A stretch of 64,000 nucleotides of DNA, taken from positions 1,266,028-1,330,027 of the forward strand of contig NC_087079.1 of NCBI RefSeq assembly GCF_026151205.1, written 5' to 3'. The position numbers and the translations under genes were made by a program. The notes under the pieces are model-generated. The model made no database searches, was not told the origin of the DNA, and was given only the letters and a program-made list of their open reading frames with translations. This stretch comes from Bolinopsis microptera (Eukaryota; Ctenophora; Tentaculata; Lobata; Bolinopsidae). Below, piece after piece: positions 9,086 through 45,030 of this stretch; positions within the stretch are counted from its first letter, which is position 1, and each line of letters begins with the position of its first letter.

Positions 9086-9090
9086 AAACA

Positions 9091-11784
9091 CTACTCGGAC
9101 TCTATTGTTATGAATATATTCTTCACAAGATCACAGTAACCTGTCATCGTTTCCTCTTTTGTCATCCCTGAAATTTTAGGCAATCAAAATCATAATTATA
9201 AAATCGTTCTTATCATGGGCGCGTTTCACATTTCAAAGGTGGCTTTTCTTTTATAAAAGCGTGATTAGCTCTTATATATATTATGAAACTTACCGTTATG
9301 TTTTTAATATTATGAAATTATTATAATATTCTAAATAGAAATCGTGATAATAATAATGTGCTGGTCGCTGGAACCTGTTTTACTCTTCCAGGCGTCCCAC
9401 TGCGACATTCCTTTAAAGTTTGGGTATCTCGGCCGAGCTGAAAGGTAATTCATATATAAATACGTTCAAATAATTATACGATATATCAATTTTTGCCTGA
9501 ACTAAGGGGAGTGGGGACCCTTTCATCTTGAATCAGTGAAAGAATAATCTAGGTAGTGCGCCATCGACAGTGAGCCGCGCGTGCCGACTGTAGGATGGTT
9601 TTTTAGCGCTAATTTCGGCCAGCACAATTTTCTTCAAACAAATAGATATTAAGTATCCTTCCCGACCTCCAATTGCAACAAAAATTGGTAAGCTTACTCA
9701 TAGACTTACAAGGAAAGTGTCCGAAAAATTTAAAGCATATCCAACCATCCGACATTATGTTACAGCTAAAAGCAGCGTATTTTGCCCCATTTTGATCACT
9801 ATATCAACTCCGATATCCACCAAATTTTTCGGACAGTTGTGAAAGCCCTATTGGAAGGTCGTCGCCAATTTCCAGAATGATCTCATTTAAGGAACTGAAG
9901 ATAAATCCGAATAATACGACAAAAATGGTCAAATTTGGACGAATTTGGTCAAATTACGCAACTTTTACAGCTACTTTTGCTCCAAAAGCCGCGCACCATC
10001 AAATATGGCACCTAGGCGAAACTCACTGATCTTTCCAAAAAGGTATAACAAATTTGGTATAATTGTGAAAATTCTCACAGTCTCTAGAAAACAGTGGTAC
10101 AAAAATTTTTAAAATCTGAGCAAGTTTATTTTTATCGTGCACCCCCTAAATAATCACGCTCCCTAAAAAATATCCTGACATGAACCTAACACTAACAGAT
10201 CGTACTCGTAGTTAAACCTGTATTTATATAAACCTGTATCTATCTAAACCTGTATTTATATAAACCTGTATTTATATAAACCTGTATTTATATAAACCTG
10301 TATCTATCTAAACCTGTATTTATATAAACCTGTATTTATATAAACCTGTATTTATATAAACCTGTATTTATATAAACCTGTATTTATATAAACCTGTATT
10401 TATATAAACCTGTATTTATATAAACCTGTATTTATATAAACCTGTATTTATATAAACCTGTATTTATATAAACCTGTATTTATATAAACCTGTATTTATA
10501 TAAACCTGTATTTATATAAACCTGTATTTATATAAACCTGTATTTATATAAACCTGTATTTATATAAACCTGTATTTATATAAACCTGTATTTATATAAA
10601 CCTGTATTTATATAAACCTGTATTTATATAAACCTGTATTTATATAAACCTGTATTTATATAAACCTGTATTTATATAAACCTGTATTTATATAAACCTG
10701 TATTTATATAAACCTGTATTTATATAAACCTGTATTTATATAAACCTGTATTTATATAAACCTGTATTTATATAAACCTGTATTTATATAAACCTGTATT
10801 TATATAAACCTGTATTTATATAAACCTGTATTTATATAAACCTGTATTTATATAAACCTGTATTTATATAAACCTGTATTTATATAAACCTGTATTTATA
10901 TAAACCTGTATTTATATAAACCTGTATTTATATAAACCTGTATTTATATAAACCTGTATTTATATAAACCTGTATTTATATAAACCTGTATTTATATAAA
11001 CCTGTATTTATATAAACCTGTATTTATATAAACCTGTATTTATATAAACCTGTATTTATATAAACCTGTATTTATATAAACCTGTATTTATATAAACCTG
11101 TATTTATATAAACCTGTATTTATATAAACCTGTATTTATATAAACCTGTATTTATATAAACCTGTATTTATATAAACCTGTATTTATATAAACCTGTATT
11201 TATATAAACCTGTATTTATATAAACCTGTATTTATATAAACCTGTATTTATATAAACCTGTATTTATATAAACCTGTATTTATATAAACCTGTATTTATA
11301 TAAACCTGTATTTATATAAACCTGTATTTATATAAACCTGTATTTATATAAACCTGTATTTATATAAACCTGTATTTATATAAACCTGTATTTATATAAA
11401 CCTGTATTTATATAAACCTGTATTTATATAAACCTGTATTTATATAAACCTGTATTTATATAAACCTGTATTTATATAAACCTGTATTTATATAAACCTG
11501 TATTTATATAAACCTGTATTTATATAAACCTGTATTTATATAAACCTGTATTTATATAAACCTGTATTTATATAAACCTGTATTTATATAAACCTGTATT
11601 TATATAAACCTGTATTTATATAAACCTGTATTTATATAAACCTGTATTTATATAAACCTGTATTGCAGTCGCCTACTTTGGACTGCTTGAAGAGAGCGTA
11701 CAGTTCTAGTAGGTCCCTCATACTTATCTTGGTTCGCACGGGTTCCCCCGCGTTCTCTATACTCTTACAAGCTGCTTCAAACTC
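9091..11784 (-). CDS. Acyl-CoA-binding protein (ACBP/DBI-like), 5' exon missing
   Basis: Three phase-compatible exons: 11658-11784, 9375-9437 and 9091-9167 (stop TAG at 9091-9093). Together they encode about 89 residues of an ACB domain: EFEAACKSIENAG, LLELYALFKQSKVGDCNT, RPRYPNFKGMSQWDAWKSK, GMTKEETMTGYCDLVKNI. The YxxxKQxxxGD and KxxxWDAW blocks are the family signature and bind long-chain acyl-CoA esters, buffering and delivering them in the cytosol. The protein ends soon after the domain, so it resembles the small DBI type rather than ankyrin- or membrane-anchored ACBD proteins. The first exon, with the start codon and phase 0 donor, should lie in 11790-12880 but could not be chosen. Intron 1 is filled by a 16-bp repeat array that starts at the splice donor itself. 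Confidence 0.88.
9440..10210. other. Intron of the ACBP gene, unclassified sequence
   Basis: Left part of the ACBP intron, outside the 16-bp array. Contains mixed, non-coding sequence that may include decayed repeats (ccgatatccaccaaatttttcgg and similar), with no recognisable element boundaries. Confidence 0.4.
10213..11663 (-). repeat. 16-bp minisatellite, about 90 units, carrying the splice donor
   Basis: Unit aaacctgtatttatat on the plus strand; minus-strand sense atacag|gtttatataa. More than 80 consecutive units are identical; only a few at the left edge have tatctatc. The first minus-strand unit is the real exon-intron junction of the ACBP gene: the last 7 exon bases (aatacag) plus 9 intron bases form the repeat, so each unit offers a copy of the donor. 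Confidence 0.97.
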
Positions 11785-11789
11785 CTGGT

Positions 11790-12325
11790 AACGTGATATA
11801 GCTCGGTGTTATTGTTTGAATGACACATTAAAACAGCAGTGATGGAGAGTCGGTGTCAGATGACAGCAATCTGATAGGAGAATCGCTATCTGTTTTAAGA
11901 AACAATACAAGAAGTCTTGTAGGATATGAGTATAATCTTTAATCTGGGGGCCTGACCTTGACTAGAGCTGCGGTGTCTGTCATTATTAAAGCTGAACTGT
12001 ACTGGCGGGTATCTCCACTTCAAATTGAATGTAATCAGAGACGCAACGGAACAAACACAGTAACGGTCAGTAAACTCAAAGTTTGGCTTGTGGAGAAAAG
12101 CCACCGCTATTGTTCTACTAGTACGAAGACTCGACCAATCAAGCATTTACAGGGTGTAGGAGCGATACAATAGCGGACACAATGCTATACAGATACCACG
12201 GGGGTAAAGTCACAATCAGAGCACGTGCACTGCCTCCGCTACAATAACCGTATTAGTTATTACTTTGGCTTGATCGTGCTGTATAGACCGCAGTGCGGTG
12301 TGTGGAGTAATGGTGTGATTTATAT

Positions 12326-12397
<72 letters not shown>

Positions 12398-12880
12398 ACA
12401 GTGCTGCAGTTACTGTTATAACAGGGTCCATGACTGCCCGAGGGTAGGTCTGGATACAGAAGAGGACTTACACTTACAGGATGCAAATAAGTTTTAACGA
12501 AGAGAAATTATATAAGGTGAAAGCAGGTCTGTACTTTACTCCTTTAAACAAATTCGTAAACAAAGAATTTTGTTGGAATCTTTGATTGTTACACAGTCTT
12601 AACGTCTTGTTCACAAAACAATCCAAAGAGAAATGAAATGCGTGTAATATTTGCTAAAACTTGTTAAAATGTTGAACAATTTTATGGCAATAATCTTTTG
12701 TTTAGTAAGGAACACTGTCACCCATGTAATAAATTAACCGTAGCATCGCATTTTGTGAATTCAAATACAATAGATAAACAAACATGCAATGGCTATGGTA
12801 TCAAATTATCACATAAAGTCAAAAGTTTTAAGATGGTCTAATTAATTCTTTGACGATCAGTGCAAATGTGGAGGGTCGGC
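11790..12880. other. Gap between ACBP exon and ISCU; contains (TC)n
   Basis: Expected to hold the ACBP first exon and promoter and the ISCU 3' end. A pure CT dinucleotide microsatellite runs 12331-12394. No exon could be assigned with confidence. Confidence 0.5.
12331..12394. repeat. (CT)n microsatellite
   Basis: Uninterrupted ct dinucleotides for about 64 bp. The long frames seen across it are simple-repeat artefacts. Confidence 0.98.
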
Positions 12881-12890
12881 TCTCAATATC

Positions 12891-14705
12891 TCATTCTTTG
12901 GTATTCTTAGTCCTGTAGTCTGCGATAGCTGCTTTGATTGCGTCCTCTGCTAGCACTGAAACATGGGGACACGTTAGAAATTTGTTGATGACGGAATTTG
13001 AATTCTTAACAGTTTTTGAAGACATAGAGATTTAATTAATTTATTAATTAGGACTAACGAGAATATAGTGGCCATCAATATGGGGGGCTCATCGCCCCCC
13101 CCCCCCCCCCCTCATTTTAAGCATAGTTATTGTGTAGAAAATACACTTGCGAGCAGCTGTGTCCAAGCCCAAACAAGTAATGAATCTTAAAATACTGTAT
13201 CAATTCTGTGTATTTAATCGGATTTTACTGGAAATGAGCTAAGCGACCGCGCAGCAGAATGCGCGTTCGTTAAGTTGCCTTCTACGTTAGACTATCCAGC
13301 TTATATTGATTTGTAGACCGCGCGTGCCGCTGGAATTTTAAGTTTGGTCGTCGGCCAAGCATGGTTCCCATGATCTTATACTTCATAAACATGTACAGCA
13401 CGTACACTTTAACCATCATAATATGAAGTCAAATCGAGGGTCCCGGCTTAAAAGGTTTTGGTGTATGTCCCCTTAAACGCGATTGCGACAAACATTGCTA
13501 TGGTAACTGCGAAAACATTTTGTTCCGTAGTAAGATGTTTTATGGATTTTTCCACAAAGAATCACAAATAACCGGATAGAACTTACTAGAACAATGTAGC
13601 TTAACAGGGGGCAAGCACAGTTCCTTGGCAATGTCTGTGTTTTTAATCTTGGAAGCGTCGTCCACCTAGTAAAAACATGATGTTATCTCAAGTCTCCAAA
13701 CAAGTCATCAGAAGATGAAGTTTGTAAAGTGTAAACAGAATATGCCAATAAATATTCGACTACCAAGACAATCAATCTAACTTAAAACTACGTACATGTT
13801 TTCCTTTGACCCATTCTGTAGCCAGTGAGCTTGAAGCGATGGCAGAACCACATCCAAAGGTTTTAAACTTCGCGTCAATTATCCTTCCATCATCATCTAC
13901 TTTCAGCTGAGAAAACAAAAATCGTAGGAACCAAAACTTTCCAGATGCCGAAAGAATATAAACATAAACGTTCATTTCTAATGATATTAAAGAATTCTAT
14001 AACAAGAGCACTTATGCACCAATTAAGTTAATTTCAGATCTAGGGATTTGCTCTGCTCTGTAACATTACCTGGAGCTTCATGACGTCACCGCAGGCGGGG
14101 GCTCCAACTAAACCAGTCCCCACACCACCCTCACTCTTCTTGAAGGATCCCACATTCCTGGGGATAACATTCATTACATTTCAAAGAAACGCAATAAAAG
14201 TATGATTCTATCTTTGATTTAAAGACTTAATATCTTTTGTGGTATGCTTTAATGTCGAAGTTGGTAATAAATGTTAGAATCTGTACTTGATATCATTAGC
14301 CTAATATTAGATAAGAAATTTCATAACACCTACCAACTTCAAATAGGTTTACTACATGTTTAAATACTTCTACAGACTTATGAAGTTGATGATGGCACAA
14401 ACGATTTCATATAATCTGATGTATGTAGAATTTAGAAATTAACCAAATTGAAGATAATATTACACAGAAATTCTATTCCTGACCTTATCCCAACCCCATA
14501 CGTTCGCGTTGGGTGAATAAAATGTGGATAAATTAGAACCAAATACTGCAAATACAGAGCCCTATAATACATGTATGTATACCTGGGATTCTAATAATAC
14601 ATACCTGGGATTCTCGTAGTGATCAATAACATTGGCGTGATAGCTTACAGTCTGCTGAACCAGCTGACAAGTTGGCCGGAGCACGGTCTGTGTAAGTCTT
14701 AACAT
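12891..14705 (-). CDS. ISCU: Iron-sulfur cluster assembly scaffold ISCU, complete
   Basis: Five exons, minus strand: 14605-14705, 14070-14157, 13796-13906, 13587-13665 and 12891-12955 (stop TGA at 12891-12893). All splice sites are GT-AG and phases join exactly, giving 147 residues. ISCU is the mitochondrial scaffold on which NFS1, frataxin and ferredoxin build [2Fe-2S] clusters. The three cluster cysteines are present: Cys56 in GAPACGD, Cys82 in TFGCGSA and Cys125 in LHCSM, plus Asp58; the chaperone-binding LPPVK lies at 118-122. Residues 1-20 or so ([20 protein letters not shown]) look like a mitochondrial presequence. Met127 after CysSer matches the residue whose Ile substitution bypasses frataxin in yeast Isu1, so this is the frataxin-dependent form; that codon is split by the last intron. 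A 22-23 bp duplication repeats the exon 1 donor in intron 1. Confidence 0.97.
13094..13113. repeat. Poly-C run in ISCU intron
   Basis: About 18 consecutive C. One of many C or G homopolymers in the window (also near 3597, 20828, 25472, 29996, 37850, 44551, 60448 and 63789). Confidence 0.9.
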
Positions 14706-15329
14706 CCTAACTACAAATATAGAACAGTGAGACAGGATTAGAAACTAAGTTCCGAGAGTCACTGGAAATCATTTAAAACTAATTCAATCTACAAAAGTAA
14801 GGAAAGTGGCATTTCTGAGCTGGTAGCGGCAAAATGGCATTGCAGTTGCGCCGATAATGGCGTCATATTAGCAAAATATTGAAGTTGCACGTTAGCTCGA
14901 AATGTCAATAATGAGACATGATCAGAAAGAGTCTGTGTTAGTATTAACATCCTAGTTCTTACTTCCAAAAACTACATAATAACAAAGAGACTGGATTAGA
15001 AATTGAGTTTCTAAGAAACTCTCTGTAGAAAAGTAGAAAGGAAAAGAAATGCAGGATCAAAAATTCAATCACGCACATAAAATTAGCTCACTTTATAACT
15101 CCTCAATAATCGATTATTTTTATGTACATAACATTTTCATGATAAGTTTATAACCGCTGCGGTTTGGAAAGCAATAAATACATAAATAACCACACTGAAG
15201 TTGAACAATTAAAAAAATATCAAAAAATCAAAACTTTCTAACAAAAGGGCCAGCAATAATAAATATCGTATTAAAATTTAAACTCAATAATAAAAACTAC
15301 AAGATTTCTCAAAACAATCACTTGCACCC

Positions 15330-17000
15330 TCACATTTGTTCTTCCAGAACTTTGCCCGAATGTAAGATTATAGCACACTTAGGGAGCTCAGATTTGAGAT
15401 AATCCAGTAAATCAGGCAACTCAGATTCAAAAGGTATATCCAACATTCCTTTACAATCCGAAATATCGAGATGTTTGAGTGATTTAAGTTCTGCTAGCTG
15501 ACGGATACCGTGCTGTGTGATACTAGTCTTTGATAGGTTTAGTGCCTGGAGAGAATATCTAGTCAGTAGAAATTAAAGCAAAGATGAAAGTACAGCAATT
15601 AATGGATTATACGAGCTAGTGCGACTACTATTTAAAGTAATAATTAATAGTTAATAAAAAGTAACCTTTAATGAACCGCTGTCTGCTGAACCATGTAAAT
15701 GAGGCAGTGCACTGTCATCAACATACCGGCACTGGGCAAACGAGGCTGTCTGGATATAGGCCAGGTTCTTTATGTATCTAAAACCTGATAATACATCAAT
15801 TTAAACTAACTGTCATACAAACTTAACTGAAACTTGACTGTTATCTCATTATACTAACTAAGAATCAAATGTTAATAAACAAGAAGACTAATTCAACACA
15901 TATATCTATAATAAGTTCAAGAAGTACTGTGCAGTGACTGTGCAGTGTGTACTGTACGAAAGCTTATACAACTGAGACAGTATAACGTACATTGTACAAC
16001 TGTGTAATAATATAATTGTGCAGGTGTATCTAGGAAACTGGCATATTAACAAGACGTGATATCATAACAACCGGTTTTAATTAGTGACAAGTATTTAAGT
16101 AGACTGTAGTTAATAGTTAATAGTTAATAGTTAATAGTATTTATGTTTACAGTATGCAGTATGCACTGAAGGGGTATCCTAGGAAGTTTCTTGAACTTTT
16201 AACAGGTACCCCTCCTCATTTAACCCTCAGTCAAGTTTCCTATCATTCGGCTGAGTCGACCGAGGAGATCGCATAGGTTCAATGGATCCTTGAAGCTACT
16301 CCCTAGACTAGGTGACACTGGGTGCTAGTAATTAAGGTATGATAAGTATGTGTTTAAAGTAATTACCAGTAGAAGAAACCTCAGTGTTGTCAGCCTGAAT
16401 GTGAGTCAGTCTGAAGTCACTGGAGAAGTTATCTTGAGGAAAGTCCCAGAATGAAGATATCCACTTATTACTACCAGACATCTTCACTTTTCCCTTGTTC
16501 CTGCAAAAGTCCAGTAAATGTGTTTGGTTACTGGTTAGAGGTGGTTGAAGAATGTTTTACATTATATTTGGCAGAGTCAGCTTGTTTTTGTGGAATGCAG
16601 ATTCCCTCCTAATCATAGTGTACATTGTACACTATGTATACAATGTATACACATGTATATTGTATAACCATATTGTCATGAAAGTGATCAAATGATGTGT
16701 AAAACTAATGTACAACATACAGCAATATCCATTCTGCAGCAGGTTTATCAGCTCCCATGTATTTCATCCTCTGTTCATCTATCCTATTATTTTTCCATCT
16801 TCTTGCGTAACCTAACATATTACTGATAACAATATAATCGTTGTGATTTCTGAAATAAGAAGCAATTGAATCTGCCTTTCCTTGAAAATATCTATAAAAT
16901 CAAAGTAAGACGATCATGTTTGAAATTACCTATTATGTTCCTGCAGCCAGTTTTCTTGAAATCTGATCTCATGAGTTGTCGGGTGCAGAGAGTATTCATT
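15330..17000 (-). CDS. DMAC2/ATP5S-family leucine-rich-repeat protein, 5' exon missing
   Basis: Five phase-compatible exons: 16930-17000, 16721-16849, 16367-16500, 15666-15784 and 15330-15545 (stop TGA at 15330-15332), about 222 residues. Landmarks: NWLQEHN, NMLGYARRWK, MGADKPAAEWILL, SFWDFPQDNF, QADNTEVSSTGF, QTASFAQCRYVDDSALPHL, LNLSKTSITQHGI and LAELKSLKHLDISDC. The AAEWIL block and the cysteine-bearing LRRs (FAQCRYVDD then LNLS then LDISDC) match DMAC2 (ATP5SL) and DMAC2L (ATP5S), mitochondrial proteins; DMAC2 helps assemble the distal membrane arm of complex I. The C-terminal LPKC resembles DMAC2 more than DMAC2L. An N-terminal exon with start codon and targeting peptide is still missing and should lie in 17010-17800. 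Confidence 0.82.
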
Positions 17001-17009
17001 CTAATCTGA

Positions 17010-17800
17010 GCTGGGGAGATAACAGAGTTTAGATAAAATATAGATAATGAAACTGCTCAACAGTATTATTATTATAAATATGGTCACATTGTAGTTAAAG
17101 TTATGCTCAATGTATGGATTTAGTCCCGTTGGTGTAAGTAGCCATGGCAACGGATGCTAAAATGTTTAACTGCAAGGTGATTAGACAAGACTCATATCAA
17201 GTATGCATGGGGCCATGGGGTTTCTCCATTACTTTGGGATATGGAAATTTAAACAGTGCTGCACATACTAAGCTATACCCTATGGGTGGAAGATTATTAC
17301 TTAGGTGCTAAAGGGATGATATCTAGTTCCTCTCAATTCAAACGCTGCGATGAAAGACAAAATGTTCAAACAATCACTGAAAAACAATTCTTTTAAAATA
17401 ATATAACAAATTAGTAAACACATATTTAGTCTTAAAAATAAACGAAAATCTGAAGCAATCAAATAATCAAAAAAACAGTACTAGATAATATTATAATGCA
17501 CAATGTTCAACACTCACTAAAAAATATTTCTTTAACATAATGTAACAAACTAACAAACCCATATCAATTAGTCAATGTTCAAAAAATTACCAAAATACAA
17601 TTCTGTAACCTAATTTCAAATTCAAAAATTCATATTCCATAACCAAACCACAAAATAATAACTAATTTCAACTACACCGGGAATCATAAAAAATACTGCA
17701 TAATATGCTATTATAGACATGTAGTATAATAAGATAAATATGTGATTATAGACATAATATATGCTAAATATGTGATTATAGACATAACATATGCTAAATA
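17010..17800. other. Gap between DMAC2-like gene and DXO-like gene
   Basis: AT-rich. Should contain the first exon of the DMAC2-like gene, not identified. A short tandem atatgctaaatatgtgattatagac repeat (about three copies) lies at 17735-17815, directly at the 3' end of the DXO-like gene. Confidence 0.4.
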
Positions 17801-17805
17801 TGTGA

Positions 17806-19110
17806 TTATAGACAGTATCTCTCGGTAACTATTTTCTTTAACTCTGGGTGCTCATCTTTTTCCAGTCGGATATTTCCATCTCCTGAGTAAATCAAGGTGT
17901 ACATTGCTCCTTCATCTCCACTCATCTCCTCTTTTAGCCACACTTCTTCTTTATTTCGCACTGAATCTTTGTTTACCTTTTCTTTTAACCACGAAAGGAA
18001 TGTATCCAAAAATACAAGTACCTCAGGAGCAGACCAGTAATCTTTGCCTAGTTCTGCCAATTCGTTCATTGTGAATTTCCTAATCCCAATCAATTGTCCA
18101 TCTTCACAACGAAATCCACAATAGACAGCTTCAATGCCAACTAATGCACAATGTATCCATAAACTTAACGCCTTAGATCTAGAAAAGTTTTCTTTCGACT
18201 GGGGAAACATTGTTTTTGTCTCTACCATGTTTTCCTGACTATCTATTGGCCCATCTGGTTCTTGGCAACTTAATCTCGTAGCAGTTATAATTTTGTGGTC
18301 CCCAAGGGTTAATAGCTTGTTACTTTTTGCCCATTTAAGATTCTTATCCTCTCCGTTGTATTGAGGGTTCCCACCCCCCTCACTTCTTAACACATCCTCG
18401 AACTTTTTACCATACTTTGATAACTCCCAATGCATCTTTGTATCATCAGAGTAATCAAAGTCAGGTATAATATAACTAATTTCTTCTGAATTCTTTTCTC
18501 CTTGTACTGGAAGAATTTTCGGATTATCCAGAAATCTCCAGTAGTCATAATTTGGCGGTGCATCTAAACCATACTTCCAGTATCTTTGACTGTCATCAAC
18601 AATCTTCTCGATAAACATTTTTCCTTTGTAGCAAAAAACTGCATACTCCCACTCACCAGTACGGCCTAAAGTTGCAGTAGAAGCAATATCTCGTAAAGCA
18701 CAACTTACCATGAAAATGTCGACTTGTTTCAAGTCGAACTGTTCTCTCATTGCCCACGTGAGAACCTTTCCAATGGAGAAAATTTCAGGAATAAATTCTG
18801 GCATTTCTTTTGGAGGAAGTTCAACTTCAAAGTCAAACAAATGATCATTGGTTACATCAAGGATATACTTTTTGTGATTATCTACCCATCTCTCTAATTT
18901 CAAGCTTAATGGAAGTGATATACGAGGATATACAAAAGGAATCTGACACGATTTAGGCATGGGATGACCAGATGCTGATGACCATGTCTCTATCTCAACA
19001 GGATATTCGTAATTATGCCTCCCAACTTCCTCCACTGAGAATCCCTTTAAATTTCTCCACTGCTGATACTCCTCCCGCTTTTTGACAGGGAACACTTCAG
19101 TGGTTGCCAT
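17806..19110 (-). CDS. DXO/Rai1-like decapping exoribonuclease, single exon, altered active site
   Basis: A 434-residue intronless frame. It matches the DXO/Rai1 fold along its length: KVLTWAMREQFD and VDIFMVSC (117-137), GEWEYAVFCYKGKMFIEK (152-169), WELSKYGKKFEDVL (228-241), NMVETKT (294-300), ALSLWIHCALVGIEAVYCGFR (314-334) and VLVFLDTFLSWLKE (364-377). DXO removes incomplete, unmethylated or NAD caps and degrades the RNA 5' to 3'. Of the metal-binding motifs recalled for the family, GKKFE (Glu238) and ETK (Glu297, Lys299) are intact, but the E-x-D motif appears to read TRLSC (278-282), and the Gln usually found in WxQ is His320. It may therefore be inactive or altered in activity. Every flanking host gene is split, so lack of introns could reflect retroposition; no poly(A) tail or flanking repeat was seen. 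Confidence 0.85.
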   Translation of the reverse strand: MATTEVFPVKKREEYQQWRNLKGFSVEEVGRHNYEYPVEIETWSSASGHPMPKSCQIPFVYPRISLPLSLKLERWVDNHKKYILDVTNDHLFDFEVELPPKEMPEFIPEIFSIGKVLTWAMREQFDLKQVDIFMVSCALRDIASTATLGRTGEWEYAVFCYKGKMFIEKIVDDSQRYWKYGLDAPPNYDYWRFLDNPKILPVQGEKNSEEISYIIPDFDYSDDTKMHWELSKYGKKFEDVLRSEGGGNPQYNGEDKNLKWAKSNKLLTLGDHKIITATRLSCQEPDGPIDSQENMVETKTMFPQSKENFSRSKALSLWIHCALVGIEAVYCGFRCEDGQLIGIRKFTMNELAELGKDYWSAPEVLVFLDTFLSWLKEKVNKDSVRNKEEVWLKEEMSGDEGAMYTLIYSGDGNIRLEKDEHPELKKIVTERYCL

Positions 19111-19114
19111 GACT

Positions 19115-20640: not shown

Positions 20641-20645
20641 GACTA

Positions 20646-23371: not shown

Positions 23372-23379
23372 CTAGTGTT

Positions 23380-24590: not shown

Positions 24591-24597
24591 GGAACCA

Positions 24598-25437: not shown

Positions 25438-25532
25438 AGGGGTCGTTCACATAATACGGAATCACCGAGAGGGGGGGGGGGGGGGTTAAATTAAACGTTG
25501 TTCAGGACGTGATTACGTAATATGTCAACGAT
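25438..25532. mobile_element. Short MITE around a poly-G run
   Basis: Left ggggtcgttcacataatacg and right tacgtaatatgtcaacgatcc are imperfect inverted repeats, about 95 bp apart, with a central poly-G tract. Related ends (aatatgtgaacgatc) occur near 37305, 51045 and 63590, so this is a small dispersed family. Confidence 0.6.
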
Positions 25533-29660: not shown

Positions 29661-29679
29661 TCACACCAGTTATCCCCAA

Positions 29680-29910: not shown

Positions 29911-29989
29911 AAGTCAAAACCTTCGTCAACCAACCGAGAAATTGTTTCTTGAGGACAAAGAACTGGATGTTTAAATAGGTACCGCGACA

Positions 29990-30490: not shown

Positions 30491-30701
30491 CCCGTTTAAA
30501 TACTATCTGCAGCTAATGTAGTACATGATTCTAAAACTAATATAAATAATTCTAAAACTCAAATTAAAGTCTTTTGGTCTAATATAGTACTGCTCAATGG
30601 GATGGTGTGGAAATCGCTCATAAAACATTAGTAATGTTTGTGCCTACTATTAAAAGCCAGGGAGTGTTTTAGACGAGATTTGTAGTGAAATCAACAAGAA
30701 A

Positions 30702-31442: not shown

Positions 31443-31552
31443 AGAGTATAACTAGAGGCGAGACTGGCTAAAATTATTATTCCTACTTATCTAAATTAAA
31501 ACATTATTGTTGATTTTGATCTTGAAGGGACCATAATTTTTGAGGCCATTAC

Positions 31553-31990
31553 TTGCCGATGATGTCAATGTTTATTTCAGGATTACCACTTTTGGAACTC
31601 AATAAATGTATCCTTGTATCCTTGTATCCTTGTATCCTTGTATCCTATCAGGTCCAGTTACTACAAAATGCCGTAGCCAAAGCTGTTGATAGGCAATATA
31701 AACATTACCATCTTGAGGATGAACTGATTAATCTTTACTGGTTGGATAATGGATATAGAGAAGAGGATTGAATTCAAAATCTTACTGTAAAATCTCACAA
31801 ATCCATACTAGGATTGGCTCCAACTTATCTGCAAGATATGTTCGGATTTATGTTTAGTGTGGGTAGCCTCTCTGTAGTAGCTTCTAAGATGTACAATCAA
31901 TTTGCTAATTCTTTGAAATCGTTAAAGCTCTTCTAAAAACTTTGTCGAAAAACTATTCAAGTCATATTTGGTGAAAGACCTTCAATTTAA
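31553..31990 (+). mobile_element. LINE RT C-terminal fragment
   Basis: Reads VQLLQNAVAKAVDRQY, LINLYWLDNGYREED, then after a frameshift SHKSILGLAPTYLQDM, the LQNxAAR ... LHWLPV ... GLAPxYLxDL region near the end of LINE reverse transcriptases. A short tatccttg repeat lies at 31615-31650. Probably a relic of the same or a related family as the fragments at 27.1 and 29.7 kb. Confidence 0.7.
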
Positions 31991-31999
31991 AAAATATAA

Positions 32000-34900: not shown

Positions 34901-35095
34901 TCCATACCGGTTTTGAGCTCTTAGAAGTGACTGTTTAAGTAAATTCTTGACAGATCCGCATGTGGAGGTGAAATTTAACGGGCCAACTTTACGGAATTCG
35001 TTCCACAAGAGGTCATACTAGGTATAAGTCCAAATGCTGTGTCAGCAACCGTTTTTGTTACTTTCTTTTCTTCTTGACTCCTCACACCATGAACT
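32000..35095. other. Intergenic, unclassified, no gene seen
   Basis: AT-rich, with homopolymer-like (cccaaaaa)-type stretches near 32580-32800. A short inverted repeat (accgctcaagcatg ... taagcggt) lies at 33430-33465. A GC-richer plus-strand patch at 34560-34760 has a 60-residue frame without recognisable similarity. Confidence 0.4.
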
Positions 35096-35102
35096 GATAC
35101 CA

Positions 35103-36430
35103 CTATGCTTTTAAGCATATCTTGGTCCTGATGTAGTTGATAACATCTGTGTAGCTCTCCTTTCTCTTCTTTGATATCAATCTAGCAAGACGTTTGTGAA
35201 ATCTGTCACATTCTGGACTCTGGTGCTGTAGTCCCTGCTGTAGAAAACACTAGAGGAATGAAAGACGCTCTTTCAGTGTTGATGACTCGTGAGTTATACT
35301 TAGTTTTTTTTCTTCCTCATTTCTCTTGTACAACTTGTCCAGGGGAACATTAAGGTTTGATGGTGCATTTGGGTGTGTTATTCTTACATCCATGAAAGTC
35401 CTGGCATTCCTGCCATATAATCCAGTTGCAACAATATCTAGCCTTGCTCCGCTGTCAGTACTACTGACAGTGGCGTAACGTTGCCTGTTGGCGCCCCCCT
35501 GCCGAAAAGGCGCCCCCCTGTTGGCGCCCCCTCCCCTTTTGGTGCCCCTCCCTAAAATTGAACAAATTAGGTGATTTTAGAAGATACGCCGGTAAAAATC
35601 TCTAAAAAAGTGTGTATCTAGAGCAAAACGCGCAGTTTTGCTAGTACTTTAGTTAAGTTTTCGAAATTGTCCCACATTCAAACGACGATTTGGTGCCCCC
35701 CTAAGACGGCGCCCCCCTGCACAGCGGGGTCAGCAGGGCCCTTCGTTACGCTACTAGTCAGTAGTAGTTCCTTTGGGATGAAGTTCTGGAGACGTTGGTA
35801 AGAGAGCTGGCTCAGTATAAACGTTTCTACATTTAGCCTCACGTAGTAGATCTGCTTCGGTTTCTACAAGCACTGTATGTCTAAAGGAAACATACCCTCC
35901 TTTTTTACAAGAAAGGGCATGATCGACGGAGTTTCTTTCTCCACACGCACAGTGTTTAGCAATATCTTGTATAGGCCAGCCATATCGCAAACATATACCA
36001 TCTCTAAAGTCCTTCTTGTTCAAGCAGTAACCATAAGACTGCATTGGGAGGGCTGACAGCCAGGATGAACTGCCTTTTTGTGTAGCCAGTGAAAACGATC
36101 TTTTCTTTGCTGGAGAACTTATTGCGTTTTCTATTCTGAGTCTCTCTGCTGCAAAATCTTTTTCTTTTTCAGCTTTCAGTGCTGCTTTGGTGTTTGCAAT
36201 AGCTGTGAGGTCAAGTTTGCCTAGATCATGATCTTGGTTATAGATAAGATTAGGCAGAGGTTTTGTGATTTTCTGTGACGCCTCATATTCTCTGTCTGCT
36301 GTAAGAACAGGATTTTGAATTCCTAAGCCACCGTGTCTAAGAGGTAGTGCGACCTTGTCTCTCTCTAGGTCTGTTACTGGGCGATTGAATATAGAAGGAA
36401 GAAGTATTGTTCTAATTGCTTCTTTTCACA
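35103..36430 (-). mobile_element. Retroelement polyprotein C-terminus, interrupted by a MITE
   Basis: Minus-strand reading: TILLPSIFNRPVTDLERDK, LPLRHGGLGIQNP, then a Lys/Ala-rich linker, YGYCLNKKDFRDGICLRYGW, CACGERNSVDHALSCKKGGY and FRHTVLVETEADLL, up to PELHPKGTTTD. After an insertion at about 35465-35755 it resumes as SGARLDIVATGLYGRNARTF, MDVRITHPNAPSN and CDRFHKRLARLISKKR, ending at TAG 35103-35105. The LRHGGLGI, RYGW, CACG/HALSCKKGG and DVRxTHP blocks are typical of the 3' portion of invertebrate retrotransposon RT ORFs. Frameshifts in the last 250 bp show decay. Confidence 0.8.
35465..35755. mobile_element. MITE inserted in the retroelement ORF
   Basis: Splits the retroelement frame. 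Ends agtggcgtaacg and cgttacgctact are inverted repeats with one mismatch; the host motif tactgac appears on both sides. The interior is rich in ggcgccccc motifs in both flanks. Ends resemble the CAGTGGCGTA termini of some hAT-derived MITEs, but the target duplication is not clean enough to assign a superfamily. Confidence 0.65.
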
Positions 36431-36786
36431 ATAAATCAGCTTTCTTTTTAATACATAATATATAATATAATACACATCAAAAAGTTAAGTGTCTAGTATT
36501 TGTGTTTGTTATTATTTGTTATTATTATTAATAATATTATCTTTTCTACATACCAGCTTTATTAATTGTTAAGACGACCAAATGTATTTAATTAAATGAT
36601 CCATGTTGTAAGTATAAATTACGAAATTGTTAAAGAAAGAAAATACCAATCCTGGGTGCCAAATTAAAATAACGAATGTTGTTAAAATGATGCGTTGCTC
36701 CTTTATCAAAAGCTTGTCTGCAGTTAGTTGTGCACTTTCTGGGGAATCAAGCAACAACTAATCATTAATCATGCAGACATATTATT

Positions 36787-38180
36787 CACATAGCCATGTG
36801 TCTACGCGTACTGCGTGACGCGCTTGTTTCACAATTCGGTCGCGCGCTACTGCTTGGTTGACGATGTCAACCCATCGAGATCGTCGCTCTGCGAAGCAGA
36901 GCAACGATCGACGATGCGAAGCAAGAATGCTAGTTCGCGCGGCGCGTCGAAGCGGCGAAGTCCTCCAAGCTACTGCAAGCGAGAGGGCTCTGGTTAGAGC
37001 AAGACATATTATTATAATTATGTTTTGATAATAATAATTTGACCATTGTTAATGGTCTGGCCCGGTGCGCGCTACATTTCGAGAAGAAAGCGGCGCGCGC
37101 TACTTCGAAGAAATTTAGACGAGTAACATCCGTCAAGACACAAATTAAATACATTTTAGGGAGATAATATTAATGTTATAAAATTACAAGTTTGAATCGT
37201 ATTGGGATCTTTCATATATCATTTTCTGTTAGTGTAATTTCTACACAAAAGCTGTTTAAATTGGCCGACAATTGGTTACCGTAATATAATAATATGTGAA
37301 CGATCTGAATTGATATATTTATTATACTGCAAACCCCTATTTACCTTGTCATACGTTGTATGACCCGCCGCGCACTTGTGCGCGGCTCCCCTGTAACGTC
37401 GAAACTCTACATGACAGGGGTATAGTGAAGCGACCGTGGGGGTCACCATTCACATAGCCATGTGTATACGCGTACTGCGTGACGCGCTTGTTTCACAACG
37501 GCGGTCGCGCGCTACTGCAAGCGAGAGGGCTCTGGTTAGAGCAAGGGTCACCACGTGATACAAGGTATAGGTTATAAACCTACAATTACATTTCGTTAAG
37601 TGTAAAAAGCGGCGCGCGCTACTTCTAAGAAATTAATACTATGTAGACGAGTATGGAGTAACATCATATCATATCCCTCACATTTATAATCTACCTAGAC
37701 GGGCGCCGAGTTGGGCTTACTGGGCCGTGCTCAGCTTGTCATTCCGCCGAATCTCTATTTATGAACATAATAGCCTGGGCCGGGGTCCCCAGGTAAATGG
37801 TCATACTCATATTTCGTGATCGAGACAGTTTTCGCCAATATCTCGCCGCGGGGGGGGGGGGGGGGGGGGAGCAATTTAACGTTATGTCATGCATGGAGGA
37901 TAAAACATTGTTTCACGTCTTGACCCCCATTGTCGTTTCACTAAGTGTCGTTCGCGTTTGATTATTGGTATCGTGGCGAAAGCCAGTACGATACAGCCGC
38001 ACACTCGTGCGCTGCAGGTCTACAAGTACAACGTATTATTATATGATCGACAAGCAGTATGCAGTAGACTGTAAAGTGATTTTTCACATAGCCATGTGTA
38101 ACTGTATACGCGTACTGCGTGACGCGCTAACCAGAGCCCTCTGCAAGCGAGAGGGTTCTGGTTAGAGCAAAAGTGATTTA
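36787..38180. repeat. GC-rich mosaic with three copies of a palindromic module
   Basis: The module cacatagccatgtg ... tacgcgtactgcgtgacgcgc ... gcaagcgagagggctctggttagagcaa occurs at 36787-37010 (with a 110-bp insertion), 37450-37546 and 38086-38170. In the third copy ctaaccagagccctct and agagggttctggttag face each other as a hairpin. A second module, gcggcgcgcgctacttc, occurs at 37090 and 37609. Strikingly CpG-rich for this AT-rich region. No protein seen. Confidence 0.75.
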
Positions 38181-38360
38181 GCACGGTCGGTTTACGGTTG
38201 TCGTGGGACGTGACTGCTTCTTTTCAATTTCAAATTGAAAGCCTATTTGGCCCCAAGTAAGCAAGGCATTGACTTACCTGGGGACCTCAGGCTATCAGTA
38301 TCATGTTCATAAACAGGACAGATTAGGCGGAATGACAGGCTGAGCGCGGCCCAGTAAGGC
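37710..38360. repeat. Inverted repeat pair, about 90-bp arms
   Basis: Arm 37715-37800 (cttactgggccgtgctcagc ... ccccaggtaaatgg) matches the reverse complement of 38265-38357 with scattered differences. The arms enclose the third copy of the palindromic GC-rich module, suggesting a foldback transposon. Confidence 0.7.
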
Positions 38361-38410
38361 ATTGACATACGTTGCATGCCACTTAAGTGGCCTGCAACGT
38401 ATGTCAATGT
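38357..38410. repeat. Near-perfect 54-bp palindrome
   Basis: cattgacatacgttgcatgc is mirrored by gcctgcaacgtatgtcaatg around the centre gccacttaagtggc, with one mismatch. It abuts the 38265-38357 inverted arm. Confidence 0.92.
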
Positions 38411-38449
38411 GCATGCACTTTTTGGGATACGCAACATGTATCAAGCAAG

Positions 38450-39820
38450 GCATATATTACCCAGGAAACCTTACCGTTAGGGGCCTAACTTCGGAAGTAA
38501 AAGAGATAGAAACGTAAGGTTTTCAACAAAATGTCCGTCTCGTAAAACTAAAGTAGGCTCCCCAGGAGCCAAATTCAAAACAATGTAGATTTTGAATTAT
38601 CGCGAAAAGTTTGATTTTGGGCTAAATAAAAGATCGCAGCTTTTAAACTTTGCGAAGTAATGTCGTTGTCATGACTCCAGATTGCAATTCACGCGAGCGA
38701 TCATGCTGATGCAGTGAACGTTACGTCACGCGCGCTGACACACGTGCCATCGAAAAACAACCACCTCTAGTACCACGGCCAGCCGGTAAGCTTTTCTGGG
38801 TAAAGTTAAACTCTGTACTGAGTACTCATCATTATAAAAACAATAATAAACAACATTTTATAAAAGGAAAAAATATTGTAAATTGTAAATGCAAACCACT
38901 CAGCTAATGACCCCAAATTAATTGATTCTTAACCTATGACCTAACCTCAAAATTGGATAGAGTGAACCGTCACCAGGCAGTAGTGTCTCCTTTTTCCGAA
39001 CAAAAAGAAGTGATATTGATATCAATTTAAATCACCGTTACTGCACGTACCCAAACGCAAAATGATACCGAGAATGAAATCGGTCTGTCGCTTATCTCAT
39101 TCATCCAATTCCACGGCCTGCAAATTGTAACGCATCGATAGTGCCGAATAGTAATACTGCCTCCAATCCAATATCAAATATCATCAATTGAGGATGATCA
39201 TGAATGGGAAAATTTACGGTCCACTCTGCCCAATTTTGGGTTTTAGTAAAAATGTCATCTCTTTACAAATATGGTTAATGTCACTGTCCTATAATTCACA
39301 AGGTCAAAATGTAAAACTGAGAAATATATCGAACAAGGAGGTAATTTCAACGATTTGGAAATTTTACCTTTTAAAATATTTCCGTGTGTTTTAGTAAGCA
39401 TATCTCTCGATCACTGACTGAATAATGAATATGCCACTCTATACTCATTTAAATTGGTATTACATCCATATACATATTACATATGTATGTCATTTAACTG
39501 TCGTGGGAAAGCAGTGCTTGCCGGCACTGTGATTTCAAGTACAGTCTCAGATCACTCGTATAAGTTTAAAGTTAACTACTGATAAATTATCTGACCATCT
39601 TAATAATAATCAATATCAGGAGCTTTGTCGTCTTTTAAGCAACTTTTCAGTGTCTATCATCATCTCCCTTTCGGGGAAGTAAGTGGTTTCGGTTTCTCAA
39701 CTTCTGAACGACAAGGATTGTAGTAGTCCTGAATTAGGTTAAAGTTAAACTATCAATTCTAACTCTAAGTTATGTGACAGAAATATGCAAAAGTCAGTAC
39801 CCATACGTTGGGGCTTATAA
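38450..39820. repeat. Unclassified; includes an inverted relative of 48.8-49.2 kb
   Basis: 38940-39130 resembles one arm of the 49 kb palindrome (atagagtgaaccgtcacc..., accgagaatgaaatcggt). 39310-39470 resembles the reverse complement of 48810-48960 (gaacaaggaggtaatttcaa against ttgaaatcacctcc). Both sites thus carry the same element family. No host gene. Confidence 0.6.
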
Positions 39821-39824
39821 CATA

Positions 39825-40405
39825 TATATCCACCAGCGTGCGCTTTTTCGCATAGCGGGCTCTCACCAGCCCGCTGTCAAAAGGCCCGATATCTCTACAG
39901 CCCGCTCATGATATAGCCCGCTAACAAGTGACATTTAATTTGACCAGTAGCAATATAGCCCGGAGTTCTCTAAAATATTTTCAGTTTCTGTATCGTCTCC
40001 ATGTGAAATTCCTTATTACACTGACTATATAATACATTTTATTTTTGTGTCCGGTAGGGCTGCTCATGCAGCTCGTGAGCAGATGACATGATACTTTGAT
40101 TTATATCAAAGTTATTATAACACACTACATAATACACATCAGCACTATAATCCCCCTATATTATTGATATTCATCGTCACTGACATTACATTCATTATTG
40201 ATATTCCCACGGCCCAGGAATGCAGTGCATCTCCAGCCCCTATATACGACACAGCCCTTTATGATTGGCTTACATTGAACACGTGACGTGTTACCATGGT
40301 TACAACAATTAGTGGCGACCTTTTCTAGAGTTAACTTTTATACAAGCTCCATTGTTTATTTATAAAATTATATATTAACTGTAATACGCCCGCTGGTGGA
40401 TATAA
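39825..40405. mobile_element. Foldback element with 13-14 bp inverted ends
   Basis: Begins tatatccaccagcg and ends cgctggtggatata. The left end carries repeated agcccgct motifs. Immediately to its right lies the multi-hairpin structure at 40411-40573. Confidence 0.55.
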
Positions 40406-40410
40406 TCCAC

Positions 40411-40573
40411 ATCACCTCGACCCGCGGGCGTAAAAATCGTATAGCACTCGGGCCCGATGGGCCCTCCGTGCTATACGAAAATATGTCCTCCTCGGGCTAG
40501 CGCCCTCGGGGACATATGAAATATTGCACGCGCGTGCGCGTGCAATATTTTGTTCCGCCCGCGAGTCTCCGGT
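40411..40573. repeat. Cloverleaf-like structure: outer stem plus three hairpins
   Basis: Outer stem cgcgggcg (40423-40430) pairs with cgcccgcg (40556-40563), and atcacc/ggtgat extends it. Inside are three consecutive hairpins: cgtatagcac/gtgctatacg (40438-40477, GGGCCC tip), atatgtcc/ggacatat (40481-40517) and aaatattgcacgcgc with its complement (40519-40550). No coding capacity. Confidence 0.85.
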
Positions 40574-40710
40574 GATATGTATATATATACAGCATAATGT
40601 GATGTCGATGATATCTCCATCTCCTAAAATTTGATATCAGAAGCAAATTAAGTACCATAGTATCACCAGTTTTACTAAAAATGTAAACTTCTATCGTCTA
40701 TTTAGCTTAC

Positions 40711-43700
40711 CAGTTTCCAGCAAATCATTTCAACCCAAGCTTTTCGATCTTCTGGTGTGGCGGCCTGGATGTAGTATATTCTTTTTCGGACTGTAATCCT
40801 GTCAGATACGCAGTTATTATCAGAGAAAATTGTTAACTGCTAAACACCATTTAAATAGAAAACTGCTTCTTACATAGGATTAGGAGATTGATTCTCCGAA
40901 ACACACAATTCAGATATCTGAATTGTCGCGCGGAAAACAAAATCAGAAATTCTGCACTTCACATTTTTTAGTGTTGAGCAATAAACCGAGTTATCAGTTA
41001 TGTTGCTAGAAAGTTCGAAATAAGATGATTTAATTTCTGAAATGTTATGGAAAAAATTGCTTAAATCAGCTGATACGCATATAATTGGGGTTTACCATTT
41101 ACTGTATAAATGATAACGTACTAACTACTAATAAACTAATTGTTCGGATTATTTTGATTAATGAATCGGGTCTGTCCAAATCAAGAAATTGCAATTTTAT
41201 CCCATACCAAGACAAGGTATTAATGTTTGTAACAGAAACTAAAAACTCCTAAATCAGCGGTATCTGCTCACGTGAACCCGTTGCTAAAAGAATCGTCCTC
41301 GTTACAATCCAGAGCTTTAGATAGGTCAATAACACCCCGAGGGTTGGTGGCCTCGTTGGAAACATAGTACCGTAACCAGTGCTTCTGTATCACAAACCAC
41401 CTGCTCTTCCAGTTCTGACAATATTATTATAACCATAACCTGAGACTAACTAAGCATTATATCGTCCTGTTCTGACAATATTATTATAACGATAACCTGA
41501 GACTAACTAAGCATTATATCGTCCTGTTCTGACAATATTATTATAACGATAGTCGATAACCTGAGACTAACTAAGTATTGTATCTTCCTGTTCTGACATA
41601 AGTTGCAGGAGTATTCCTGGTTTAATCTAACAAATGAAAAGTAATGCATACAAAATACCTAAGGATGAGTTCTTGTAGTTTTACCTTGACGTTATCTCCA
41701 CGTTTAGTTAGGTACCCTGACTTTTTCCTTATCTCAAAGTCAGGGTCACTTGTTCTGAGTTGACCGGTGGGGGAGTGAATGTCGACCGGGCGAGCTCCGG
41801 TCTCAATGTGCTCTTCGATCTGCATGTAAGTTTCTGTAGAAAAAGGAAATATCAGATATGTGATCGGTCAAGTTTTATATAACCTGGCAGCTGTTTAAAT
41901 TGAATAATCTATGACAAAGTTCAGACTAGCTAAGTTGTGAAGCGTCGGAACACGGAAGCTCATATGTCTCGACTGCTAAATGAACACATATACTATCGTT
42001 TACCAACCATAACTCTTATATCCATAACATTAAGCATTGAGATTCGCCAAAAATGAACAAATTTCACAAACCAACAATCACAAACGATCATGATAAGTAA
42101 AAATCTACAAAAAAATGTTACTATTTTAACAAACAGATTGGAATGAAAACCGTAAAAAAGTTTTTTCTACAAATATGTGTGGCGCTAGATTATCTCTAAC
42201 CTATAACGACTCTTCGGTGAATATTAAAGTCATTTCACAAGTTTTGCACCAAGACATTAATAGCGTCCCACTCTGACTACTGACCAATCACAGCGCTCCA
42301 TTCTGACTACTGACCAATCACAGCGCTCCACTCTGACTACTGACCAATCACAGCGCTCTACTCTGACTACTGACCAATCACAGCGCTCTACTCTGACTAC
42401 TGACCAATCACAGCACTCCACTCTGACTACTGACCAATCACAGCACTCCACTCTGACTACTGACCAATCACAGCACTCCACTCTGACTACTGACCAATCA
42501 CAGCACTCCACTCTGACTACTGACCAATCACAGCACTCCACTCTGACTACTGACCAATCACAGCACTCCACTCTGACTACTGACCAATCACAGCACTCCA
42601 CTCTGACTACTGACCAATCACAGCGCTCCACTCTGACTACTGACCAATCACAGCGCTCCACTCTGACTACTGACCAATCACAGCGCTCCACTCTGACTAC
42701 TGACCAATCACAGCGCTCTACTCTGACTACTGACCAATCACAGCGCTCCATTCTGACTACTGACAAATCACAGCGCTCCATTCTGACTACTGACCAATCA
42801 CAGCGCTCCACTCTGACTACTGACCAATCACAGCGCTCCACTCTGACTACTGACCAATCACAGCGCTCCACTCTGACTACTGACCAATCACAGCGCTCCA
42901 CTCTGACTACTGACCAATCACAGCGCTCCACTTTGACTACTGACCAATCACAGCGCTCCACTCTGACTACTGACCAATCACAGCGCTCTACTCTGACTAC
43001 TGACCAATCACAGCGCTCCTCTCTGACTACTGACCAATCACAGCGCTCCACTCTGACTACTGACCAATCACAGCGCTCCACTCTGACTACTGACCAATCA
43101 CAGCGCTCCACTCTGACTACTGACCAATCACAGCGCTCCACTCTGACTACTGACCAATCACAGCGCTCCATTCTGACTACTGACCAATCACAGCGCTCCA
43201 CTCTGACTACTGACAAATCACAGCGCTCCACTCTGACTACTGACCAATCACAGCGCTCCACCCTGACTACTGACCAATCACAGCGCTCCACTCTGACTAC
43301 TGACCAATCACAGCGCTCCACTCTGACTACTGACCAATCACAGCGCTCCACTCTGACTACTGACAAATCACAGCGCTCCTCTCTGACTACTTACCCTTGT
43401 CGTCAGTGTGCACCTCCCGTGGGTAGGGGTAGCGCAGTTCCACTTGATAACCTCCGGAAGTGCTCGCTAAGTCTGCAGTTCCTGTTAAGTAATTTATTAA
43501 CTTGCTGCTAGTTATTAGTTTTAAATGAGCTGAAACTGTTGTAATTTGCAAAGAGGAAGAGCACCTCTGTGTAACTGTAATCTCTGTGTATCTGTAATAC
43601 CTGTGTAATCTCTGTAATCTCTGTGTTTAAATTGTAACCTTACTTACCGATAGCGGGAATGTTTTCGAAATGTTCCAGAAGTTTCCTTAAATTGTCGAAC

Positions 43701-45030
43701 TTATGTTTTCCGAATAGGTAGCCGTCCCCCTGCCATAACACGGGGAAATGTTTTACATCCTCGGGATACCTGATTTAAATATTCGATCAGCCATGTCGAT
43801 TTATGATCAATTATTTGAATGACCGATAGATCTTACTGTTGCCGGGAGCTGATGTGAGTGGTCCTAAATTAAACAAAATGAGTGCAATCTGATTGTTAAA
43901 TCATGTCATCACGTGTTAAAGCAACGCTGGAATTAATTAACTACAATAATAAACAAACTTGACAGAAACAGTTAAGTCGTCAGGTCCTCCTCTACTGTAG
44001 GTCCTCATCAGGTAGCTCCCAACCTTGTCAGTTCCCAGTAGGATGTGCTCTGCTGCGTGACGGTTCAGATTAGGGTGATACCATCTGGGGAGGAGAATTT
44101 TGTGAAAGTGAAAGTGAAAGTAATGGTGAAACTTAACAACAGAACAAAGGTGACAGATTCATGATGACTTAAAAACATAGGAGGTATATGCAGTTTATCT
44201 AATTAGATTTTGGTCTTGAGCATTGCGTACTTAACAGTTAACACTTAACATGAATCAATAGCAAACATCGATCAACAGCTATTAGTTAATTAGTATTACT
44301 ATTAGTATTAACGAACTACGTAGTAATTATCTTTGGGTGACTGTGTGAGTAGGTTACGTATAATTTTACTTTTAGTAGGTGTCCGGCTCTTAGTCTTACT
44401 AATGATCGCTCGCCTTAAAACTATCACGTGACTTTGGTTTTATGGTTTTCGAATTCGTGTTTAACTAGCTAGTCACGCGACCAAAACAGTTTTTGCCCAT
44501 ACACCATAGGCATAACTCTGAAGGGAAGCATTTCTACCCTACGTCATGTGGGGGGGGGGGGGGGGGGGGGGTGTGATTAGGAATCAGCGTCCACAAATAT
44601 ACCGACTCATATTACTTTCATTCCCTCAGGGCCTTTTCACAAGAATTTTCATAAAATTGAGGCGAGCGATTTATTGGGAGCGGTCCAATAATATAGCTTA
44701 GTGGTGTACGCAATACGCATAGAGGTTCAGGTTTAAAATGGCCAAAAAAAGTGAAGTGCAATGTGAACCAAAGGCAAAACGATGGAAGCTGGAGAAGTGG
44801 TTTACCCGTTTACAGTTCATCGAATCCTCTGAATGTGGTTAGGGCTTCAGGATAGGGCTCCAGCTGGCCGTCCTGAAGTCCGAACCCTGAACTAACCTGA
44901 CTCGGAGGAGTTCCAACTCTAAAGCAGGATAGGGCTCCAGTTGGCCGTCCCCGAACCCTGAACTACTGGAACTGGAGGCAGTCTCCACTGAGAAAGTGAA
45001 ATTGTTTGTTCCCCCTCCCAACCTTGACAT
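40711..45030 (-). CDS. DAPP1/Bam32-like SH2-PH adaptor (last exon missing)
   Basis: Seven phase-compatible exons: 44897-45030, 43959-44084, 43837-43863, 43648-43769, 41685-41833, 41272-41414 and 40711-40798, giving 263 residues. The SH2 domain (46-136) has WYHPNLNRHAAEHIL, GSYLMRTY with the phosphotyrosine-binding Arg72, YPEDVKHFPV and LLEHFENIPAI. A linker with TYMQIEEHIETG follows; its Tyr139 aligns with the tyrosine phosphorylated in human DAPP1. The PH domain (about 173-263) has KKSGYLTKRGDNVKNWKSRWF, the basic phosphoinositide pocket, and ends EDRKAWVEMICWKL. DAPP1 is recruited to PI(3,4,5)P3/PI(3,4)P2 membranes downstream of tyrosine kinases. The exon after WKL (donor gtaagc) was not found. 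Introns carry a 30-bp CCAAT minisatellite and a duplicated acceptor. Confidence 0.92.
41412..41600 (-). repeat. 56-62 bp tandem repeat starting at a splice acceptor
   Basis: Three to four copies of gttctgacaatattattata ... gactaactaagcattatat. The first begins with the first three bases of the DAPP1 exon at 41272-41414, so each copy reproduces the acceptor aatattgtcag|aac in minus sense. Confidence 0.9.
42265..43395. repeat. 30-bp minisatellite, about 37 units, each with a CCAAT box
   Basis: Unit ctctgactactgaccaatca plus cagcgctcca. Variation is limited to a few positions (agcgctcca/agcactcca/agcgctcta). Lies in the DAPP1 intron between the last SH2 exon and the linker exon. Because 30 is divisible by three, long spurious frames span it on both strands. 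Every unit contains gaccaatca, a close match to the NF-Y motif; three or so units have acaaatca instead. Confidence 0.97.
44551..44572. repeat. Poly-G run in DAPP1 intron 1
   Basis: About 22 consecutive G in the first DAPP1 intron. Confidence 0.9.

Follow-up and report, generated by a model that had tools for sequence, protein, structure and literature searches.

The window analysed here is a 64,000-nucleotide stretch (G000:C8:1266028-1330027) of a genome of 264.65 Mb in 232 contigs, and three of its genes, ACBP, ISCU and a DAPP1-like gene, carry tandem repeats at exon-intron boundaries. The genes of the window look animal-like. Gene identities were taken from Pfam profiles and from sequence alignments to PDB chains; gene names with neither match are tentative. 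Pfam supported ACBP (5.4e-17), NifU_N (3.5e-44), SH2 (1.4e-15) and PH (1.3e-16) in the window. A junction was scored as spanned when a local repeat had at least 6 bases on each side of it, with a score of 14; none of 300 positions in shuffled sequence attained this threshold, indicating that the junction repeats are real. Splice-site scores, in bits, were computed with weights learned by a home-made gene finder. A sequence-only reading of the window had listed four duplications spanning a junction. Three of them, at the ACBP donor, the ISCU exon 1 donor and the DAPP1 PH-exon acceptor, held up, with protein alignments to PDB chains that are gapless across each junction; the fourth, at DAPP1 exon 1, did not.

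The ACBP repeat lies at the end of the exon called A here, within the following features:
11658..11784, minus strand: ACBP exon A (Pfam, PDB alignment), whose last 7 bases, 11658-11664, are the start of the array's first unit
10213..11664, minus strand: 16-bp array of 91 units, each with CAG|GT
9438..11657, minus strand: ACBP intron lengthened by the array, 2,220 bp
9375..9437, minus strand: ACBP exon B (Pfam, PDB alignment)

Tandem Repeats Finder (TRF) placed this array at 10213-11664 as 90.8 copies of 16 bp, in agreement with the roughly 90 donor copies first proposed. All 91 in-register units retain ATACAG|GT; 86 share one sequence and 5 carry substitutions. Exon A ends in GGCGACTGCAATACAG and the intron starts with GTTTATATAAATACAG|GTTTATATAAATACAG... 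Across the joint of exons A and B the protein aligned without a gap to a PDB chain (KVGDCNT|ARPRYPNFKG and KVGNCNT|PKPSFFDFEG). Conserved residues are encoded by these exon bases, so the simplest reading takes the end of the exon as the source and the array as the copy. Of donors 1-5, the ones tried, only donor 1 kept the frame without a stop; the intronic units contain stops, and the acceptor of this intron lies outside the repeats. In a genome-wide search allowing at most one mismatch, a 24-mer of the unit matched 37 times in forward and 88 times in reverse orientation (control, 0 and 0). This is about the number expected from two ACBP arrays alone, and among the matches listed all were in the ACBP array or its paralog; the idea that the unit is a dispersed repeat was rejected on this basis.

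The second donor repeat is short and lies at the end of ISCU exon 1:
14593..14614, minus strand: end of ISCU exon 1 with its donor, copy 1 of a 22-bp unit with 10 exonic bases
14575..14592, minus strand: copy 2 of the unit with a second donor-like site (unit comparison)

The donor is at 14605, and a second one stands 22 bp downstream, as expected from the two copies originally noted. The exon end reads AGAATCCCAG|GTATGT and is followed 22 bp on by AGAATCCCAG|GTATAC, with scores of 9.3 bits for the first donor and 4.6 bits for the second. The alignment to solved ISCU chains is intact over the junction (HYENPR|NVGS), and the acceptor of the intron lies outside the repeats.

The DAPP1-like gene, with SH2 and PH domains by Pfam, carries three repeats of different standing:
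41272..41414, minus strand: DAPP1 PH-domain exon, with the acceptor at its high edge (Pfam, PDB alignment, gene finder)
41408..41598, minus strand: 57-bp array, in which the acceptor recurs at -57 and -114 and, in part, at -178
44925..44965, minus strand: part of DAPP1 exon 1 copied into intron 1 (by reading)
44848..44894, minus strand: intronic copy of the exon 1 segment, with no second donor recognisable (by reading)
42268..43394, minus strand: array of 38 units of 30 bp in DAPP1 intron 4, from donor +1 of exon 4 (43395-43481)

At acceptor 41414 the 57-bp unit, with about 7-10 exonic bases, is present in three copies and a partial one, which bears out the 3-4 copies of the sequence-only reading. 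The acceptor reads ATTGTCAG|AACTGG, and the PH alignment is unbroken at VK|NWKSRWF. The exon copy scored 4.4, the copies at -57 and -114 both 4.7, and that at -178 scored 2.1. At exon 1 a segment has indeed been duplicated into the intron, but the copy begins at about intron +3, differs in length from its source by about 6 bases and does not span the junction; an ungapped repeat test at donor 44897 found nothing spanning it. No second donor was recognisable at the end of this copy, so the view that every copy keeps a usable splice signal is not supported. The intron 4 array, which was outside the original list, has no exonic base in its unit. Its first donor scored 10.2 bits and the inner ones 6.3 (34 copies) or 2.9 (3 copies). 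Within the sequence fetched for analysis the 30-bp unit was found only at its own place.

ACBP and ISCU lie in a recent inverted segmental duplication, with one copy at about 6380-14992 of the window and the other within C8:122000-131900 (L009), about 1.15 Mb apart. The two blocks are 96.8-97.6% identical, gaps counted. The paralog has the same array at the same ACBP exon end, with 38 units against 91 in the window, and its intron is 759 bp long against 2,220 bp. Of the difference, 848 bp is accounted for by 53 extra units of 16 bp and about 600 bp by an insertion:
9550..10148, no strand assigned: insertion in the ACBP intron, without counterpart in the paralog (paralog comparison)

Such arrays therefore do alter intron length, as had been proposed. 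Between 11658 and 14992, leaving out 58 gapped columns, the blocks differ at 29 of 2,806 aligned noncoding sites and at 4 of 487 coding sites. All four coding differences are synonymous and fall in ACBP exon A; the 63 bp of exon B show no difference. The chance of finding no amino-acid change at the noncoding rate is about 0.015, so the exons in the duplicated block seem to be under constraint. The size of the ACBP array changed within the time that left about 1% substitutions. A short sequence at the edge of the insertion (about 9546-9601) has at least 38 further scored copies on many contigs and is perhaps the end of a mobile element.

An excess of repeats at splice junctions was assessed by four tests, which did not fully agree. 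Unselected junctions were taken from the gene finder run with repeats masked, which fuses neighbouring genes and fails to predict the junctions at ACBP, at ISCU exon 1 and at the DAPP1 acceptor. Over 200 kb of C1 that had not been chosen for this purpose, 5 of 190 predicted junctions were spanned. The control counts, each out of 700, were 63 for random positions, 29 for intronic ones, 47 for intronic ones lying 30-60 bases from the end of the intron and 29 for exonic ones. The enrichment that the sequence-only reading had raised for testing did not appear there, the random positions being spanned in 4-9% of cases. Among the better gene models of that region (n=6, one of them Pfam-tested) 2 of 76 junctions were spanned, one by a weak match (score 14.5). 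In the window, 2 of 72 predicted junctions were spanned in a set that lacks the three junctions missed by the finder; the controls were 138 (random), 123 (intronic), 85 (intronic, 30-60 bases from the end) and 89 (exonic), each of 700. Of the curated junctions of four window genes, 3 of 32 were spanned. Random intronic positions of the same genes were spanned in 36% of cases, or 5% when the two introns with big arrays were left out (1,500 positions each). Without repeat masking the gene finder recovered the DAPP1 acceptor at 41414; this run also placed exons inside an 81-bp array and matched repeats at 40 of 284 junctions, 33 of them in that array, and these matches were left out of the counts.

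Two donor consensus 9-mers, CAGGTAAGT and AAGGTAAGT, were searched genome-wide as doublets with a gap of 2-32. The first gave 420 pairs and, as far as C10:1.5 Mb, 15 arrays, of which two are paralogous; the second gave 389 pairs and, as far as C3:9.8 Mb, 5 arrays. Among the control 9-mers, the two reversed motifs gave 1 and 6 pairs. In a second set of two, one control had 37 pairs, which form 4 arrays (2 of these as far as C10:1.5 Mb), and the other had 1 pair; in a third set one had 228 pairs, with 6 arrays as far as C10:1.5 Mb, and the other had 126. Judged by the reversed motif only, with its 1 pair to 420, the excess would have looked enormous; this estimate was dropped after local calibration and the addition of control motifs. 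In the C1 sample all 5,040 permutations of CAGGTAAGT gave 58 array-by-9-mer cases at 24 array loci. Scaled to the whole genome, this predicts about 15 arrays for each 9-mer (13 when scaled from the window), whereas extrapolation for the donor motif itself gives about 21. With AAGGTAAGT the prediction was about 17 (30 from the window) and the extrapolation about 22. The donor motif occurs 2,462 times and its reverse 1,212 times. The genome-wide motif excess ranges from 1.4-fold to several-fold with the choice of control. No large excess of arrays at junctions was demonstrated; there may be a modest one.

Flanks were fetched for 20 distinct arrays among the donor-motif matches listed, which cover part of the genome. 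In 4 of the 20 the unit includes 22-27 bases of an exon-like open-frame end, and a fifth has acceptor-like copies:
L041: WD40, MABP1/WDR62-type (Pfam 7.5e-5, below the model's cut-off)
L048: Ig-like, LAR (E 0.34, weak homology)
L038: collinear with importin-7 over all 36 residues (E 1.3, weak homology)
L050: signal-peptide-like start (no match)
L044: 37-bp array, each copy acceptor-like, followed by an open frame

Judged from its open frame only, L044 may be an acceptor counterpart of the boundary-spanning lancelet minisatellites called mirages. At L036 and L037 the arrays begin at or near a likely donor, and in the other 13 of the 20 no exon was recognised or the edge of the array was not reached. 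L045 and L046, both on C8, share the sequence before GTAAGTAACAG and carry an 11-bp array of nearly 50 copies in one case and 2 copies in the other.

Other repeats of the window lie outside these junctions. A 30-bp array at 17735-17814 covers, by reading, the stop codon of a Rai1/DXO-like gene (Rai1 Pfam 7.2e-24). This array beside the Rai1-like exon was left uncounted; by reading, the frame meets a stop before the end of the first unit. The source of the error in the unmasked gene finder was the 81-bp tandem array (27 codons) at 1124-2747. The same finder ran through a 30-bp array at 5700-6363 as open frame, and by reading this array would encode an acidic repeat. At 54214-57582 an AGG-rich array lies between related 171-172-bp repeats in opposing orientation.

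We favour, with a probability of roughly 70%, the view that the junction arrays are ordinary minisatellites whose founding unit by chance straddled an exon-intron border, which changed by slippage and which are tolerated at exon edges. A short tandem duplication would take in a few bases of the exon, 7-10 in the window, along with neighbouring bases of the intron, and the extra junction copy would land inside the intron. If splicing kept to the outermost junction (the first of the donors, the last of the acceptors), the mRNA would therefore be unchanged and the mutation nearly neutral. Later slippage or unequal exchange would alter the copy number and hence the length of the intron. Both the use of the outermost site and the neutrality of the change are inferred. 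The evidence for this view includes the junction-spanning units, the source exons with conserved residues, the difference in copy number and intron length between paralogs and the coding conservation between them. Also in its favour are the 24-mer matches, about as many as the two ACBP arrays would account for, the single ACBP donor of the five tried that keeps the frame, the low rate at unselected junctions (5 of 190) and the lancelet cases, which are reported to leave splicing undisturbed. The outermost donor has the highest score in ISCU and DAPP1 intron 4. The ACBP donors are nearly alike and the inner DAPP1 acceptors score slightly above the exon copy, so position must presumably decide there. 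Several points weigh against this view. For the 91 near-identical ACBP donors a positional rule has to be assumed, the sizes of the arrays hinge on the assembly, and the last ACBP exon was sought within the window and not found, so the gene may be incomplete. A null model of array birth, built on a repeat-finder table that excludes ISCU, predicted 0.46 spanned among the 32 curated junctions against 3 found (P=0.01, post hoc), and donor-motif arrays are commoner genome-wide than arrays of the countable control 9-mers.

The last two points bear on the idea that donors are preferred seeds of arrays, an active donor raising the rate of tandem duplication by its sequence, by splicing or by transcription, so that introns grow from their own sites. 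Consistent with seeding are the three curated junctions against the 0.46 expected, the pair counts of the two donor motifs, higher than those of all six controls, and the 15 arrays of CAGGTAAGT against 2 and 6 for the two controls countable over the same span. The permutation calibration, however, brings the expectation close to the extrapolated number of arrays, and the donor motif is itself about twice as common as its reversed control. Unselected junctions were spanned no more often than random positions, and only the four loci named above, of 20 donor-motif arrays, have a likely coding exon end in the unit. We consider seeding unlikely, and the same doubt attaches to its corollary that donors give rise to arrays several times oftener than other sequences and that some introns contain scores of equivalent donors while using the first alone. 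A function for the arrays, with AG|GT copies serving as dual-specific or stepwise sites that aid removal of the array or tune expression, would fit the CAG|GT found in 91 of 91 units and the enrichment of dual-specific AGGT sites that PMC10809524 describes for human tandem-repeat genes. A homogeneous array would nevertheless retain the motif without selection, the copy number differs between the ACBP paralogs (91 and 38), and by eye the intronic copies have no clear pyrimidine tract; we regard such a function as distinctly improbable. The DAPP1 intron 4 array, ending at donor +1 without an exonic base, is what would be seen if an array were born within an intron and later reached the exon edge, or matched the exon end by chance. 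Yet the exonic bases in register number 7 in ACBP and 10 in ISCU, and four other loci have 22-27; matches of this length would not arise by chance again and again. Those of ACBP and ISCU are translated and aligned to relatives. We regard this account as very improbable. Least probable is that collapsed or inflated repeats in the assembly created the copy numbers. Long arrays of identical units are hard to assemble and their copy numbers are known from the assembly alone, but the ACBP array occurs twice, the two copies having diverged in their flanks and differing in their internal variants, and the ISCU and DAPP1 acceptor repeats are short enough for direct reading.

The ACBP intron, with 91 near-identical donors and a paralog of 38 units to set beside it, offers a natural experiment on how splice sites are chosen. 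Counting similar arrays, which exist at other likely genes, would test whether tandem duplication at splice sites drives the growth and gain of introns. If the overlap reflects only chance and tolerance, it is a caution against inferring mechanism from striking single cases.

A literature search on junction arrays in the genes found here, in which searching by species was not possible, surfaced no report; related structures have been described in other systems. Intron gain by tandem genomic duplication of AGGT, as reviewed in PMC3443670 (also PMC4974935), has the duplicated AG|GT segment in common with the window, although what is seen here is the lengthening of existing introns, with no gain of an intron shown. 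For human segmental duplications PMC2812944 describes internal tandem repeats at exon-intron boundaries and 27 intron modifications; boundary repeats vary there, as here, between recent paralogs, but novel introns and alternative transcripts are described there, whereas the present case is known from DNA alone. Dual-specific splice sites and the UBC gene (PMC10809524) share the AGGT arrays, but there the array delimits coding monomers, unlike the intronic, stop-containing units found here. The closest parallel is with the mirage minisatellites of lancelets, described for Adh3, the globins BflGb6 and BflGb9, TnC and PGBD5 (PMC3087553, PMC3902484). According to PMC3902484 no aberrant mRNAs are generated from the Adh and TnC mirages and the PGBD5 repeats do not interfere with splicing, and both reports describe the lancelet cases as leaving splicing undisturbed. 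In lancelets, as here, the unit lies over an exon-intron boundary, donor or acceptor, AG/GT is present in many copies and the copy number is unstable. Units span the boundary in ACBP (7 exonic bases), ISCU (10) and at the DAPP1 acceptor (about 7-10), and do not in DAPP1 exon 1 or the intron 4 array. AG/GT recurs in 91 of 91 ACBP units, both ISCU units and the four acceptor copies of unequal score, and length is unstable between the ACBP paralogs. Two globin haplotypes have 3 and 6 units (PMC3087553) compared with 91 in ACBP; the copy number here changes between paralogs, not alleles, and, unlike the lancelet mirages, the case was read from genomic sequence only. The structures in the window are of the kind already described in lancelets as mirages, of which they are new examples.

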